Shown here piece by piece: positions 1,855 to 18,831 of a DNA stretch of 64,000 bases. Both the position numbers and the translations under genes were made by a program. The stretch's first letter is position 1; each line of letters opens with the position of its first letter. Source of the DNA: Bacteroidota bacterium (GTDB lineage Bacteria; Bacteroidota; Bacteroidia; Flavobacteriales_D; Crocinitomicaceae); contig JACPUU010000001.1 of the NCBI GenBank assembly GCA_016192075.1, forward strand, positions 248,001 to 312,000, written 5' to 3'. Below the pieces are notes generated by a model. It searched no databases and was not told the origin of the DNA. It saw only the letters and a program-made list of their open reading frames with translations.

Positions 1855-4335
1855 TTACTGTGGATCAACATCAACATCTACCCGAATAGATCTGAAATCA
1901 TGCATTGCCAGAAATTGTTCAATCTTTTCACGAATGACATCTTTCACTTTTTTGGGAGATGCGTCCCGCTCAAATTTAATGGTGATGTTTTTGATAAACA
2001 TGTTTTTAATTCTTGAAATACCAGGTGTTTCAGGCCCCAGCAGCCGGTCATTAAAAACAGCTTTAAGACTTTTGGCCAGCGTAATGGATCCCATTTCAAG
2101 CACATCTTTATCACGGTGTTTCAGGCTGATGTATATGATGCGGAAAAAAGGAGGGTAGTGAAAATTTTTTCGTTCCAGAATTTCCTGTTTGTAAAGCCCT
2201 TCGTAATCATGCTGCATAACTTTTTGAATAATCCAGTGGTGCGGGTCATAACTTTGAATAATAACCTTGCCCCGTTTAGCCTTACGTCCTGCCCGCCCTG
2301 ATACCTGTGACATCAATTGAAATGAACGTTCAAAAGATCTGAAATCAGGGTAGCGCAGCATTTGATCAGCACTTAAAATACCAACCAGGCCAACGTTGTC
2401 AAAATCGAGCCCTTTGCTTACCATTTGCGTTCCAATCAAAACATCAATTTCACGGTTTTCAAAGTCAGAAATAATTTGCTGATACGCATTTTTGGCGCGG
2501 GTGGTATCTAAATCCATGCGCTGAATTTTGATGGCAGGGAATAGCAGTGCCAATTCATCCTCCACTTTTTCAGTACCAAATCCAAGCATTTTCAGTTTGC
2601 GGCTTCCGCATGCCCCGCAGGATGCCGGTGGTGTAATAAAGTAGCCGCAGTAATGACACTTTAATGCATTGCTGAGTTTATGATAGGTCAGTGATACATC
2701 GCAATTTTTGCAGGTAGGTGTCCAGCCGCACATTTCGCATGACCAGATAGGGGTATACCCCCGGCGGTTTTGAAACAGAATAACCTGTTCTTTATTTTTA
2801 AACGCTTCTTCCATCTGCTCAATCAGCAGTGATGAAAAATGCGATTTCATGGTTTTTTGTTTGGTCTCTTTCTCCAGGTCGGCACACTGTATTTCAGGCA
2901 TCTGAACGCCGCCAAAACGGTTTTTCAACACCACCAGCCCATAGCGGTTTTCAAGGGCATTAAAATAGGTTTCAATAGAAGGAGTGGCAGAACCCAGCAG
3001 AATTTTTGCCTTGTGCAGTTGGCCCAGAACAATGGCTGTGTCACGTGCATTATAACGCGGCGCCGGATCGTATTGTTTGAATGAATTTTCATGCTCTTCA
3101 TCTGCAATAATCAACCCCAGATTTTGAAACGGTAAAAATACAGCCGAGCGTGCCCCCAGGATAATCCGGAATTTGCCGGTGTTTTTAAGAACTTCATTCC
3201 ATATTTCAATGCGTTCATTCTGATTAAACCGGCTGTGATAAACACCAACAAGGTTTCCAAAGTAATGTTGAAGGCGTGTAATTAACTGGGTTGTAAGGGC
3301 AATTTCAGGAAGCAGAAATAGTACCTGCTTGCCCTGTTCCAACACCGCCTGAATCAGGCTTACATAAATTTCTGTTTTGCCTGATGAGGTAACACCGTGC
3401 AGTAACACAACCTCTTTGTCATGAAAGTGCTCGTTAATTTCATGAAGTGCTTTTGCCTGGGTTTCACTCAGTGATTTGATTTCTTTAGATTCGGCCAGTT
3501 TTGAAGCAAGGCGGGTTACTTCAGCATTGAAAATGGTAATAATACCTTTCTTCTCAAGGGTCTGCAGGGTAGACTCACCAATCTGCTCTGAAAGAATTTC
3601 TTTTTTTGGAATGGGGTTCTGTTTACCTTCGTTCCACTTTACACTGTCAACTATTTTCAGCAGGGCATTAACCTGTTTTTCATTGCGCTTATTTGCCTCC
3701 AGTTCATTGAGAATGTGTTCCAGCTTTTCACTGGTGGTGATGTGTTCTGATATTTCTACAAAGGCAAGAAAACGGGGTGCATATTTGGCATTCAGCTCTT
3801 CGGTAACAATGGCTTTCTTTTTCTCAATCAGCCTTTTGATCAGGGGTTGAACGGTTTTTATTTTAACCAGGTCTGAAATTTCTTTCAGCGTCAGTGATTC
3901 CTGAAGCTGCAGTGCTTCAACCACAATAATTTCCTGTTCAGAGAGGTTTTCAAGATCGCGGTCAAATTCAGGATGAATACTGATTTTAGTTTCACTGGCC
4001 AGCTTAAAATTTGCCGGCAGGGCGGCGTTCATAACGTCTCCAATGGGCGCCATGTAATATTCTGAAATCCAATCCCACAATTTGAATTGCCTCTGGGTTA
4101 CAATAGGAGTTTCATCCAATACACCTTCAATGTATTTTACCTGGTATTCTTTGGGCACTTCTTCATGAACACGGCGAATAATGCCGGTATAGTATTTGGA
4201 TTTGCCAAACGGCACAATAACCCGCTTGCCCTGGGCAGCGTGGTTGTTCAGGGCAAAGGGTACCCGGTAGGTATAGGTATTGGAAATACTCAGCGGAAGT
4301 ATAACATCAACAAAATACGTAATCCTTTCGGCCAT
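1855..4335 (-). CDS. priA: primosomal protein N' (replication restart helicase PriA)
   Basis: PriA recognises abandoned replication forks and unwinds DNA to let DnaB be reloaded. All family landmarks are present in 826 residues: an N-terminal 3'-end-binding domain (about 1-105), a winged-helix region, Walker A GVTSSGKT (314-321), the DEEH Walker B box (412-415), the SAT-type motif GSATPS (448-453), and eight zinc-binding cysteines between helicase motifs (533, 536, 542, 545, 560, 563, 573, 576). The length is somewhat over the E. coli protein (732), as is common in this phylum. The ATG at 4335 directly precedes the MAERITYFVDV core, so the start is secure. The plsC gene follows closely. Confidence 0.97.
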   Translation of the reverse strand: MAERITYFVDVILPLSISNTYTYRVPFALNNHAAQGKRVIVPFGKSKYYTGIIRRVHEEVPKEYQVKYIEGVLDETPIVTQRQFKLWDWISEYYMAPIGDVMNAALPANFKLASETKISIHPEFDRDLENLSEQEIIVVEALQLQESLTLKEISDLVKIKTVQPLIKRLIEKKKAIVTEELNAKYAPRFLAFVEISEHITTSEKLEHILNELEANKRNEKQVNALLKIVDSVKWNEGKQNPIPKKEILSEQIGESTLQTLEKKGIITIFNAEVTRLASKLAESKEIKSLSETQAKALHEINEHFHDKEVVLLHGVTSSGKTEIYVSLIQAVLEQGKQVLFLLPEIALTTQLITRLQHYFGNLVGVYHSRFNQNERIEIWNEVLKNTGKFRIILGARSAVFLPFQNLGLIIADEEHENSFKQYDPAPRYNARDTAIVLGQLHKAKILLGSATPSIETYFNALENRYGLVVLKNRFGGVQMPEIQCADLEKETKQKTMKSHFSSLLIEQMEEAFKNKEQVILFQNRRGYTPIWSCEMCGWTPTCKNCDVSLTYHKLSNALKCHYCGYFITPPASCGACGSRKLKMLGFGTEKVEDELALLFPAIKIQRMDLDTTRAKNAYQQIISDFENREIDVLIGTQMVSKGLDFDNVGLVGILSADQMLRYPDFRSFERSFQLMSQVSGRAGRKAKRGKVIIQSYDPHHWIIQKVMQHDYEGLYKQEILERKNFHYPPFFRIIYISLKHRDKDVLEMGSITLAKSLKAVFNDRLLGPETPGISRIKNMFIKNITIKFERDASPKKVKDVIREKIEQFLAMHDFRSIRVDVDVDPQ

Positions 4336-16553: not shown

Positions 16554-16585
16554 AAAAATCCGCGAACCAAATTCCGCGGATTTTT
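16554..16585. terminator. bidirectional intrinsic terminator
   Basis: An 11-bp perfect stem (AAAAATCCGCG with CGCGGATTTTT, 10-nt loop) lies between the convergent TetR and PKD/T9SS genes and has a T-tract on both strands. Confidence 0.88.
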
Positions 16586-16602: not shown

Positions 16603-16619
16603 TCCCGAAACGATCGGGA
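16603..16619. repeat. TCCCGA...TCGGGA hairpin motif
   Basis: TCCCGA (16603-16608) pairs with TCGGGA (16614-16619). It is one of three CCCGA/TCGGG hairpins in the window (also 27054-27069 and 30347-30367). Confidence 0.4.
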
Positions 16620-16621
16620 TA

Positions 16622-17917
16622 TTATCTGGTTATTATAACCTGTCCTTCGAAGTATTCTGTTTCGCCGTTGGCGTTTTTAAACTGAACCTGCCATACGTAG
16701 GCCCCGTCATCAGCCAGGGAATTATCGTTCATGTTAGTGCCATCCCACGGTTGGTTAACATTGTTGGTTTGGTACATAACCGTTCCAACTTTGTCATAAA
16801 CCACCATTGTAAATGTTACGTCCATCAGGCGCAATGCTTCAGGAATGAAGTAGTCGTTTTTATTATCACCATTTGGTGTAAACGCAGTTGGAGCCAGCAG
16901 GTTGTAGTCACTTTTTACCTCAATTGGTTTTTGGGTGCTGTTTGTACAGCCAAATTCATTGGTAGCACTCAGTTCAACGGTATAAATTCCTTTTTTGCGG
17001 AACGTGTATTCAAACTGATTTTCAGCAGATGTTTTTAAGCCTTTGATATCCCAGTTCCATTCAACTGCATTTTCAGTCAGGTTGATGAAGGTAACGGTTG
17101 GTATCATTTCATTTGTTTTTTCAAAAGCAAACTCAACTTCAGGCAGTGGATTCACGGTAATATCAATACTTGATTTACTCAGCGTTTTGTTTGTTTTGGA
17201 GTCTTTCAATGAAAGTGATACGGTGAAATTACCAGAACGTTTGTAGGTATGTGTTCCAACTTTAGAACTGCTGAATGATCCGTCACCAAAATCCCAGACA
17301 TAAACAACAGCCTGGTTAATATCTTCCGGTGTAAAAATGAATTCAGAAGTCATACAAGCCACGCTGTTTTCAGTATTAAAACGTGCATTGATACGTGCTG
17401 TGCTGACAGTTTCTGCATTGTTTGGGGTTTGTCCTGGATTTTCAGCAACCTGGTTTACAGGGTCAGTACCGGTGTTGTTTCCGTTGGTTGGTTCAGATCC
17501 GTTTTGGGTTGATTCGTGGTTAAAGTTCTCGTTTCCGGATTCGCCCAGCATTCCTGGTCTTCCAGGTTCAGAAATAGTTAAGAAAGGAACGTTTTCGTTT
17601 CCTGCAGGTTGAATTTCGGTAGAATTGTCTTCGGCTGTATTTTGTGCCTGATCTGTAATCAGCGTGTTGTTATCTGCTGTGTTTTCACCGGCAACGGTAT
17701 TTTCAGCAGTTACTTCAGCAGCCGGAATAGTTTCATTTTGCTGCATCAGGTAAACAGTACCTGAAATCAGCACAACAGCGGCAGCAGAACCAATGATCCA
17801 TTTCATGGCACCGCCTTTAGAGCCCAATTGGCTGCTTACGTTAGCCCAAATCTGGGCATCGTAAGGTGCCTCATAGCCCTCAACTGCTTCTTTTATTAAT
17901 TTATCAAATTTGTCCAT
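16622..17917 (-). CDS. membrane-spanning PKD and T9SS type B domain protein paired with an ECF sigma factor
   Basis: The protein has 431 residues from ATG 17917; an alternative ATG at 17941 would overlap the sigma gene. A short N-terminal head (1-36, with EGYEAPYDAQIWANV) is followed by one transmembrane segment (about 38-57). Next come an Asn/Thr/Glu-rich linker (65-170), a PKD domain with VWDFGDG (207-213), a second PKD-like domain (258-336), and a complete type B T9SS domain (339-431: APTAFTPNGD, VYDKVG, PWDGTN, DDGAYVW). The head resembles the short sigma-binding-type heads seen in this phylum next to ECF genes. Because it lies 13 bp behind an ECF sigma gene, it is probably its anti-sigma partner. 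The N-terminus is not a cleavable signal peptide, so normal T9SS release would need proteolysis; this is unusual. Confidence 0.82.
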   Translation of the reverse strand: MDKFDKLIKEAVEGYEAPYDAQIWANVSSQLGSKGGAMKWIIGSAAAVVLISGTVYLMQQNETIPAAEVTAENTVAGENTADNNTLITDQAQNTAEDNSTEIQPAGNENVPFLTISEPGRPGMLGESGNENFNHESTQNGSEPTNGNNTGTDPVNQVAENPGQTPNNAETVSTARINARFNTENSVACMTSEFIFTPEDINQAVVYVWDFGDGSFSSSKVGTHTYKRSGNFTVSLSLKDSKTNKTLSKSSIDITVNPLPEVEFAFEKTNEMIPTVTFINLTENAVEWNWDIKGLKTSAENQFEYTFRKKGIYTVELSATNEFGCTNSTQKPIEVKSDYNLLAPTAFTPNGDNKNDYFIPEALRLMDVTFTMVVYDKVGTVMYQTNNVNQPWDGTNMNDNSLADDGAYVWQVQFKNANGETEYFEGQVIITR

Positions 17918-17930
17918 CGTTAAAGATGTA

Positions 17931-18494
17931 TTAGTGTTCAAATTTTAAGCTTAGTTCTTCTTTTAACTTCATTTTGGCTTTTGCCAGGTTTGATTTAGAC
18001 GTTCCCTCACTGATACCAAGGTATTCAGCAATTTCTTTGTGACTCATGCCTTCAATTACGTAAAGGTTAAATACGGTGCGGTAAGCGGGTGAAAGCGCGC
18101 TGATAGCTTTAATTGCCGTTTCAGCCTTTATTTTCACATCGTGCTCTTCATCGTCAGCAAAAGGAACATCCTCTTCTAAATTCTGGATGCGTGAATCGTC
18201 TTCAATTGAAAACGGATCGCGTTTGTTTTTCCTGATCTGATCAATGGCCGTATTTATCATGATACGTCTGATCCAACCTTCCAAAGAACCTTCAAAATTG
18301 TAAACGTCCAGTTTGCTGAAGATTTTGATAAAACCGTTCTGTACCATGTCTTGCGCCTCGTCTCTGTCTTTGGCATAACGCATACATACAGCCATCATCT
18401 TACCGTAGAAAAGCTTGAACAGTTGCTGCTGATATTTACTCTTGCCTTTAATGCAACCATCAACAATCGTTCTTAAATCTTCTGTTGTCTCCAC
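17931..18494 (-). CDS. ECF-type RNA polymerase sigma factor
   Basis: The protein has 187 residues with both ECF domains. Region 2 (about 25-95) has DEAQDMVQNGFIKIF and GWIRRIMINTAIDQIRK; region 4 (about 125-185) has LSPAYRTVFNLYVIEGMSHKEIAEYLGISEGTSKSNL-type helix-turn-helix text. It directs RNA polymerase to a small regulon, usually under control of a membrane anti-sigma factor encoded next door; here that is the PKD/T9SS protein. No TAnnTTTG box is seen upstream. The spacer beyond contains an imperfect inverted repeat. Confidence 0.93.
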   Translation of the reverse strand: METTEDLRTIVDGCIKGKSKYQQQLFKLFYGKMMAVCMRYAKDRDEAQDMVQNGFIKIFSKLDVYNFEGSLEGWIRRIMINTAIDQIRKNKRDPFSIEDDSRIQNLEEDVPFADDEEHDVKIKAETAIKAISALSPAYRTVFNLYVIEGMSHKEIAEYLGISEGTSKSNLAKAKMKLKEELSLKFEH

Positions 18495-18831
18495 TGGTTT
18501 TTACACTATTAAGACGCCCCAACTGTGAAAGGGTTGCCAATTTGATAAATTTTTTTTCAGGGAAGAGCCTTGAAGCGAGGAGAGAAGGAGTAAGGATTCA
18601 GAAGTTAGTATTCGTTCCGTAATCCAATTCCCGGGTCCTGCATACCTAACAAGCTCAAGCTATTACTATATCCTTATTCCTGAATCCTGATTCCCTTCCT
18701 TTTTGCCTCTTCCCTTACAAGCACAAAAATCGCCAAAAAAAGAAGGTTCGATTTAAAAACTTCCTAAATTCGTTGTCTGGCTTAATATAAAGAGCACATT
18801 TCTAAAAGTACTAACATAAAATTACATTACA
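18495..18831. repeat. intergenic region with an imperfect inverted repeat
   Basis: This 337-bp gap holds no gene. AGGATTCAG (18593-18601) is the exact inverse of CTGAATCCT (18680-18688). Further out, GGAAGAGCC (18561-18569) nearly mirrors the GCCTCTTCC near 18705. The left arm is purine-rich and the right arm pyrimidine-rich, as in the spacer at 24,705-24,780. I see no clear TAnnTTTG box for the sigma gene or for mdh. Confidence 0.45.

Follow-up and report, generated by a model that had tools for sequence, protein, structure and literature searches.

The sigma gene and its downstream partner

We analysed a 64,000-nucleotide stretch of contig JACPUU010000001.1 (assembly GCA_016192075.1), here called the window, from a Bacteroidota bacterium of the Crocinitomicaceae. 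The subject is a gene for an extracytoplasmic function (ECF) sigma factor and the gene directly downstream of it, whose product is anti-sigma-like and ends in a sorting domain of the type IX secretion system (T9SS). Both genes were found where a reading made from the letters alone (hereafter the sequence-only reading) had placed them, the second protein being composed of a short head, a transmembrane helix, PKD domains and a T9SS type B domain according to Pfam and NCBIfam matches, hydropathy and AlphaFold2. The features, all on the minus strand, are as follows.

18513..18538, minus strand: ECF-type promoter GGCAACC-N15-CGTC, 19 nucleotides (nt) before the sigma start, suggesting autoregulation
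17931..18494, minus strand: ECF sigma factor gene, 187 amino acids (aa), GTG start, with Pfam and NCBIfam matches
16622..17917, minus strand: whole anti-sigma-like gene, 431 aa, ATG at 17917
17810..17917, minus strand: cytosolic head, residues 1-36, the proposed sigma-binding module, with the motif F...IK......E.PY....W......L
17744..17800, minus strand: transmembrane helix, residues 40-58, from hydropathy and an AlphaFold2 helix
17402..17743, minus strand: disordered tether, residues 59-172 (about 115 residues), with predicted local distance difference test (pLDDT) scores mostly below 50
16910..17386, minus strand: two PKD domains, residues about 178-257 and 260-336 with approximate borders, from PKD_4 in two stretches and beta structure
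16625..16900, minus strand: T9SS type B sorting domain (CHU_C/TIGR04131), residues 340-431, without an NR[WYF]G-like motif

The sigma product matches Sigma70_r2 (2.7e-13) and r4_2 (9.9e-18) in Pfam and TIGR02937 (1.9e-31) in NCBIfam, and shares 44-81% identity with the 28 other sigmas of alignment A2. For the downstream gene, an alternative TTG start at 17941 is less likely because the aligned relatives begin at the ATG. Its product reaches peak hydrophobicity at residues 40-58 and, given that this stretch comes after a charged head, hydropathy points to an anchor rather than a usual signal peptide, in agreement with the sequence-only reading, which had taken the protein to be membrane-anchored. 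AlphaFold2 modelled head helices at residues 2-13 and 21-30, a helix at 40-58 coinciding with the hydrophobic stretch, a region at 57-172 mostly below a pLDDT of 50, and beta domains from residue 181 to the C-terminus with block means of 83-97. Comparison of this model with the PDB returned fragments of grappling-hook proteins and other beta-sandwich proteins, and nothing specific. CHU_C covers residues 342-420 with 52.4 bits against a Pfam cut-off of 27, and TIGR04131 reaches 41.9 bits against an NCBIfam cut-off of 35. The same reading had called the type B domain complete, which holds for these two family matches and fails for the missing NR[WYF]G-like motif.

Conservation of the pair was examined with the downstream protein alone as query against 199 genomes of the order, the loci being picked independently of the sigma gene. 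The best 30 places, window included, are loci L009-L038; 198 of the 199 genomes were matched, many of the listed matches spanning only the PKD/CHU_C parts. An ECF sigma gene was found directly upstream on the same strand in 29 of the 29 other loci among these best matches (30/30 with the window), indicating that the pairing of sigma and anti-sigma does not arise by chance and bearing out the gene pair that the sequence-only reading had put forward for a check in relatives. The distance from the end of the sigma gene to the downstream start ranges from −23 to +22 nt, representing overlap or close spacing. The outlier is locus L032 (+81), whose wide gap is accounted for by a frameshift in its sigma gene, which was left out of alignment A2.

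Wider searches with the whole protein were dominated by its outer domains. A search of the genome contigs returned 16 loci with matches confined to the PKD/CHU_C parts. In a search of the phylum, in which five candidates were scored per genome, head-bearing matches outside the order were not found, which is no evidence of their absence because PKD/CHU_C proteins filled the list of matches. This search was replaced by one with the sigma factor, whose list of best matches mixes orthologs and paralogs. A second pair of a sigma gene and a head-transmembrane-PKD-CHU_C gene was noted in the window's genome on contig C17 (L089:1940-2515 and 2499-3575, plus strand; 358 aa), and a GGCAACC promoter was not seen by eye in 180 nt at this pair.

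The head and its predicted docking on the sigma factor

Within the head motif, W24 is invariant among the aligned order loci. The head is doubled in tandem in 9 of the 30 order loci, and three to five tandem heads were observed on one anti-sigma protein in each of the loci L343, L345, L347, L349 and L354, where they might hold several sigma molecules. Sigma and head share one reading frame in eight loci, and read-through of the stop codon would therefore yield a fusion of the two. The fused chain of locus L012, modelled from an alignment that made use of these fusions and had 48 sigma rows and 43 head rows, gave a mean pLDDT of 83.5 and a predicted template modelling score of 0.78. The head in this model forms two helices (195-207 and 215-225) with ten-residue block pLDDT values of 70, 90, 93 and 78, versus 64, 58 and 68 for the same region of the window protein alone, a rough control in that the two alignments differ. 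The sequence-only reading had proposed a structure prediction of the head with the sigma factor as a check, and the ordering of the head beside sigma in the fused model speaks in its favour.

The placement of the sigma domains was compared with solved structures. The sigma2-sigma4 part of the fused model superposes on anti-sigma-bound SigW (Z 13.9, 154 residues, 5.0 Å) and on anti-sigma-bound CnrH (4cxf chain A; Z 11.7, 151 residues, 5.7 Å), and fits worse to ECF sigmas bound to RNA polymerase, at 21-27 Å with both domains aligned. The predicted arrangement fits an anti-sigma clamp, short of proof, and the head is predicted by this model to dock on sigma. Minimal anti-sigma factors of the CnrY type carry a short two-helix cytosolic domain that clamps sigma2 and sigma4 and precedes the transmembrane segment (PDB 4cxf). 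The window pair resembles them in its two predicted head helices and its CnrH-like sigma arrangement, a clear sequence match of the head to solved chains excepted.

That the head belongs to no Pfam family and matches none of the solved chains convincingly (best E 0.57) would suit a downstream protein that is an unrelated surface protein of the same operon and no anti-sigma factor. We consider this very improbable, given that the head stays constant across the anti-sigma forms described below, occurs in tandem copies and is ordered in the sigma fusion. In addition, Dma1, a protein of the same layout, represses its sigma factor (PMC13088901).

The sigma promoter and type B cargo operons

The promoter pattern [AG]GCAAC[CT]-N14-16-CGT stands before 30 of the 30 order sigma genes at 7-22 nt from the start, while eight other sigma genes of the window's genome seem to be without it in upstream regions inspected by eye. 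The ECF promoters of Flavobacterium psychrophilum SM6 are similar in having CGT in the −10 region and targets that include T9SS genes and an ECF/anti-sigma pair; compared by description, they differ in that the T9SS targets named are machine genes, namely gldN, porU and a PG0189-like gene (PMC9723704). The exact pattern has nine matches in the window's genome, leading to one sigma operon, one type B gene (L153) and one giant secreted protein (L154, L339); at the other six, the inspected stretch contained no type B gene. The giant protein (L154:1-5528, minus strand, and L339) exceeds 1800 aa and is truncated by the contig end, ahead of any C-terminal signal that it may have. As sole evidence for a regulon the exact pattern was rejected, since it hardly rises above a reversed control, and because it is too weak alone we used a weight matrix built without the window's site together with a comparison of gene groups.

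The matrix was derived from 29 sigma-promoter sites and scanned up to 1.85 kb upstream of the cargo genes of the window's genome. The type B set comprised 54 of 58 CHU_C rows after the own pair and 3 rows under the cut-off were dropped, 2 of the 54 regions being short at contig ends. The type A set comprised 40 of 150 listed matches, being the best-scoring 43 after removal of one shared with the CHU_C rows and of 2 located at contig ends. Sites of at least 16 bits were found in sense orientation before 8 of the 54 type B genes, with none in antisense and 0.3 in shuffles, versus 0 of 40 in sense and 1 in antisense for type A (Fisher p, type B vs type A, 0.019). At 12, 14, 18 and 20 bits, the type B sense counts were 11, 10, 6 and 4 of 54 (antisense 1, 1, 0 and 0; shuffle expectation 2.2, 0.9, 0.06 and 0.02), the type A sense counts 1, 0, 0 and 0, and the corresponding Fisher p values 0.012, 0.004, 0.036 and 0.13. 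The eight type B sites at 16 bits lie 5-52 nt before the start codon of the cargo frame or of a preceding small secreted protein. Scanning of the 64-kb window itself gave the sigma's own site only.

For a scan of a second genome (G165), the matrix was built from 28 sites, excluding those of the window and of G165 itself, and the gene set was the top 42 of 67 CHU_C rows after removal of 2 with frames shorter than 120 aa and of one lying at the start of a contig. Sites of at least 16 bits precede 4 of its 39 type B genes, with none in antisense and 0.17 in shuffles, one of the four having no start codon within 80 nt. From the predicted sites in the two genomes, the sigma factor appears to control its own operon and a minority of type B cargo operons.

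Small secreted proteins of about 115-177 aa stand first in several promoter-bearing operons, directly before the type B cargo gene (for example L153:752-1180, L161:891-1244 and L158:892-1239, all plus strand), and that of L153:752-1180 has no Pfam family. Among the operons behind the promoter that were read, the C7 operon also holds a PorP/SprF gene: it runs from a 142-aa secreted protein through a 1309-aa PKD/CHU_C cargo to a 339-aa PorP/SprF protein (124 bits).

Outer ends of the anti-sigma and type B secretion traffic

The search with the sigma factor covered 296 genomes of the class and its best places gave 29 further loci, one of them identical with L023. Head and type B domain were both present in 25 of the 29, and the promoter in 23, the six without it all coming from genus g207; in the remaining 4 loci, without a type B domain, the next gene is PorP/SprF-like. 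A further 31 genomes chosen from the same class listing gave 30 loci, of which 10 have the type B form, 13 a short form and 5 a third form, with 2 more distant ones carrying a beta-barrel end. All 17 short-form anti-sigma proteins have a tail with a peptide of the type FGDMIDP..GF...T.E, similar to a stretch of the PorP proteins encoded nearby, and in 15 of the 17 loci the next gene is PorP/SprF. Against a profile of nine PorP segments these peptides score E values of 7.6e-12 to 1.4e-4, versus 0.059 for the best of 42 other head proteins and 0.03 for the best shuffle.

The third form, seen in one family (f72), has 3-5 heads, a hydrophobic stretch and a linker followed by PorP/SprF-like sequence. 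Four such proteins, all incomplete at the locus end, were tested, and PorP_SprF exceeds the Pfam cut-off of 22.3 in three of them (30.3-50.5 bits, a partial barrel match), the fourth giving no PorP_SprF match. In a sigma tree, 63 type B, 17 short and 5 fused forms make up one clade, apart from the included beta-barrel and other paralogs; orthology in the far families rests on score, shared promoter and this moderately supported clade. The head is the constant part across the forms and the outer ends vary, and each form, as its predicted parts have it, ties a part of the type B cargo-shuttle pair to the anti-sigma factor.

Four further sigma pairs were noted in the window's genome (L116:1301-3577 and L117:1609-3478 on the minus strand; L118:2007-3958 and L119:1927-4024 on the plus strand). 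Inspected by eye, their second proteins have head-like repeats or a charged N-terminus, a transmembrane stretch and a beta-barrel-like end; the barrel end is above the Pfam cut-off for L118 only, and the head profile is weak or absent. They are probably Dma-like. The Dma family of Bacteroidota combines an N-terminal anti-sigma part, one transmembrane helix, a long disordered tether and a large C-terminal envelope domain with an adjacent cognate ECF sigma gene (PMC13088901). The window protein shares the single transmembrane helix followed by a long disordered tether, and the adjacent sigma gene recurs in the 30 of 30 loci described above. By contrast, it ends in PKD-PKD-CHU_C and its predicted regulon consists of T9SS type B cargo, whereas Dma proteins end in an outer-membrane beta-barrel and have vesicle or polysaccharide utilization locus genes as regulon (PMC13088901). 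Because its end domain differs, we name it Dma-like and place it outside the Dma definition.

This resemblance also fits an ordinary surface sensor, in which the PKD/type B part merely positions a ligand or contact sensor at the outer membrane, the signal being external and the adhesin-like cargo the response. The shared layout of the Dma anti-sigmas with their beta-barrel end (PMC13088901), the sigma-linked proteins of the same genome with an apparent barrel end (L118 by Pfam; L116, L117 and L119 by eye) and the top fold matches of the outer part, which come from fragments of adhesin-like proteins, grappling-hook proteins among them, all speak for such a sensor. It would leave unexplained, however, why the outer end is type B or PorP/SprF in nearly all clade members seen, and why a PorP-like peptide sits on the short tail. 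We hold it to be unlikely.

Type B motifs were counted by regular expression in 66 anti-sigma type B domains and, for comparison, in 69 cargo domains present in the retrieved loci. Of the anti-sigma domains 1 of 66 has an NR[WYF]G-like motif, versus 58 of 69 cargo domains, while W-G (64/66 vs 66/69), G.Y.W-like (61/66 vs 58/69) and FTPNGDG-like start (51/66 vs 33/69) sequences occur in both. Secretion in F. johnsoniae depends on every one of five conserved type B motifs (PMC12618676), and we take NR[WYF]G to be among them. Given its absence in 65 of 66, the type B domain of the anti-sigma seems to be a modified imitation of cargo, recognisable and perhaps not exportable. Compared with type B cargo, the window protein has the same C-terminal domain above curated cut-offs, and differs in the missing motif and, by hydropathy only, in having no cleavable Sec signal peptide, its hydrophobic stretch beginning at residue 40.

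In the FlgM/sigma-28 checkpoint, the sigma factor controls the substrates of a machine and the anti-sigma factor bears that machine's signal, FlgM being free and exported. A corresponding arrangement here would have a working type B signal: as soon as the T9SS is functional, it would export the anti-sigma, whole or as a cleaved outer part, and thereby lower the inhibition and license the cargo genes. The C-terminal position and most type B motifs have been retained, and the predicted regulon is T9SS cargo, as FlgM logic demands. By contrast with FlgM, the window protein is membrane-anchored and its signal altered: the anchor would need prior cleavage, the NR[WYF]G-like motif, presumably one of the five required for secretion in F. 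johnsoniae (PMC12618676), is missing from nearly every anti-sigma domain, and the groups with a PorP part showed no type B domain. Export of this kind is accordingly judged quite unlikely.

We consider it reasonably likely that the pair represents an ECF sigma factor with a membrane-anchored, Dma-like anti-sigma factor that spans the envelope, monitors type B traffic and exerts feedback on the cargo genes. The anatomy, the conservation, the promoter, the operons behind it and the replacement by shuttle parts in relatives are read from sequence; head-sigma docking and the regulon are predicted, and the docking partner, the mode of sensing, the signal path and the sign of the feedback are inferred. 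The N-terminal head would keep sigma at the inner membrane, while the transmembrane helix, the long flexible tether and the two PKD domains would let the type B domain, with its likeness to cargo, reach the outer membrane. Its docking site may be an unoccupied PorP/SprF-type shuttle or the SprA translocon, for which it would compete with genuine cargo. The docking state could be relayed along the tether by pull, displacement or proteolysis of the anchor, so that sigma is freed or held; once free, sigma would transcribe its own operon together with a group of type B cargo operons. Type B cargo requires cognate PorP/SprF shuttles that are specific and of low abundance (PMC12618676), and PorP-like proteins bind type B C-terminal domain (CTD) proteins (PMC9143113), which makes feedback on cargo and shuttle genes plausible. 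The proposal of the sequence-only reading, an anti-sigma factor with a T9SS-signal-like periplasmic part through which traffic would control sigma, is thus supported by the promoter before some type B operons, the shuttle-part replacements and the altered mimic.

Its analogy with Porphyromonas held only loosely. In the PorA-PorXY-SigP system of Porphyromonas gingivalis, a T9SS CTD protein does affect an ECF sigma factor, as had been claimed, and this sigma controls T9SS genes, whereas PorA is a separate surface protein acting via a two-component system and the CTD here lies within the anti-sigma itself (PMC7712824).

Several results weigh against traffic sensing by the pair. Free SigG1 (7qh5) fits the sigma part of the fused model equally well (Z 12.2, 4.4 Å), and no PorP gene adjoins the window pair. 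With a site before just 8 of 54, most type B genes would lie outside the regulon; the 16-bit threshold was chosen after a first look, p spanning 0.004-0.13 over the thresholds, and at 18 bits 1 of 39 genes is left in the second genome. The exact pattern gave 9 matches versus 5 for the reversed control in the window's genome, and 21 versus 17 in six relatives, 5 of the 21 being sigma operons. With one match inside a gene set aside from the 16 non-sigma matches of the relatives, the remaining 15 comprise 5 followed by a type B gene that is complete, 2 followed by large secreted proteins truncated at the end of the contig and 8 with neither. In the third form, the same three proteins reach 34-42 bits with the NCBIfam PorP model versus a cut-off of 90.6, and the clade with all three forms has a support of just 0.754. 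Finally, CHU_C matches number 48-71 in four tested short-form genomes versus 36-90 in eleven type B-form genomes, and loss of the type B domain along with the type B route was rejected as an explanation of the short form on these counts.

A class-wide T9SS traffic sensor is a further possibility that we put forward tentatively, at somewhat short of even chances. One sigma lineage would be controlled by anti-sigmas bearing a domain that mimics cargo, a peptide that mimics PorP, or PorP/SprF sequence itself, and occupancy of the shuttle or translocon would be read across the envelope to set transcription of type B cargo and shuttles. If true, this would amount to FlgM-like logic carried out by an anchored, export-deficient cargo mimic. 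To our knowledge, how Bacteroidota sense T9SS workload or capacity is an open question, and an anti-sigma with a cargo-like signal together with a promoter before cargo operons would be a direct, testable answer. In the literature searched, most subscription papers being outside that search, we came across no anti-sigma described as carrying a T9SS signal or a PorP part. With such a protein, the Dma-like anti-sigmas that span the envelope, described with beta-barrels (PMC13088901), would come to include a secretion sensor, and the promoter motif allows type B regulons to be predicted in other genomes.

Around the pair, the anti-sigma gene converges with a TetR-like gene, and a hairpin followed by T's was seen by eye between the two at 16557-16583 (AAATCCGCG...CGCGGATTT); it is possibly a terminator shared by both genes. 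A hairpin scan gives a different stem, at 16603-16619. On the other side, across 18495-18831, lies an mdh-like gene oriented divergently to the sigma operon, and the start of such a gene lies divergent from the sigma gene, within 700 nt, in 24 of the 30 order loci.

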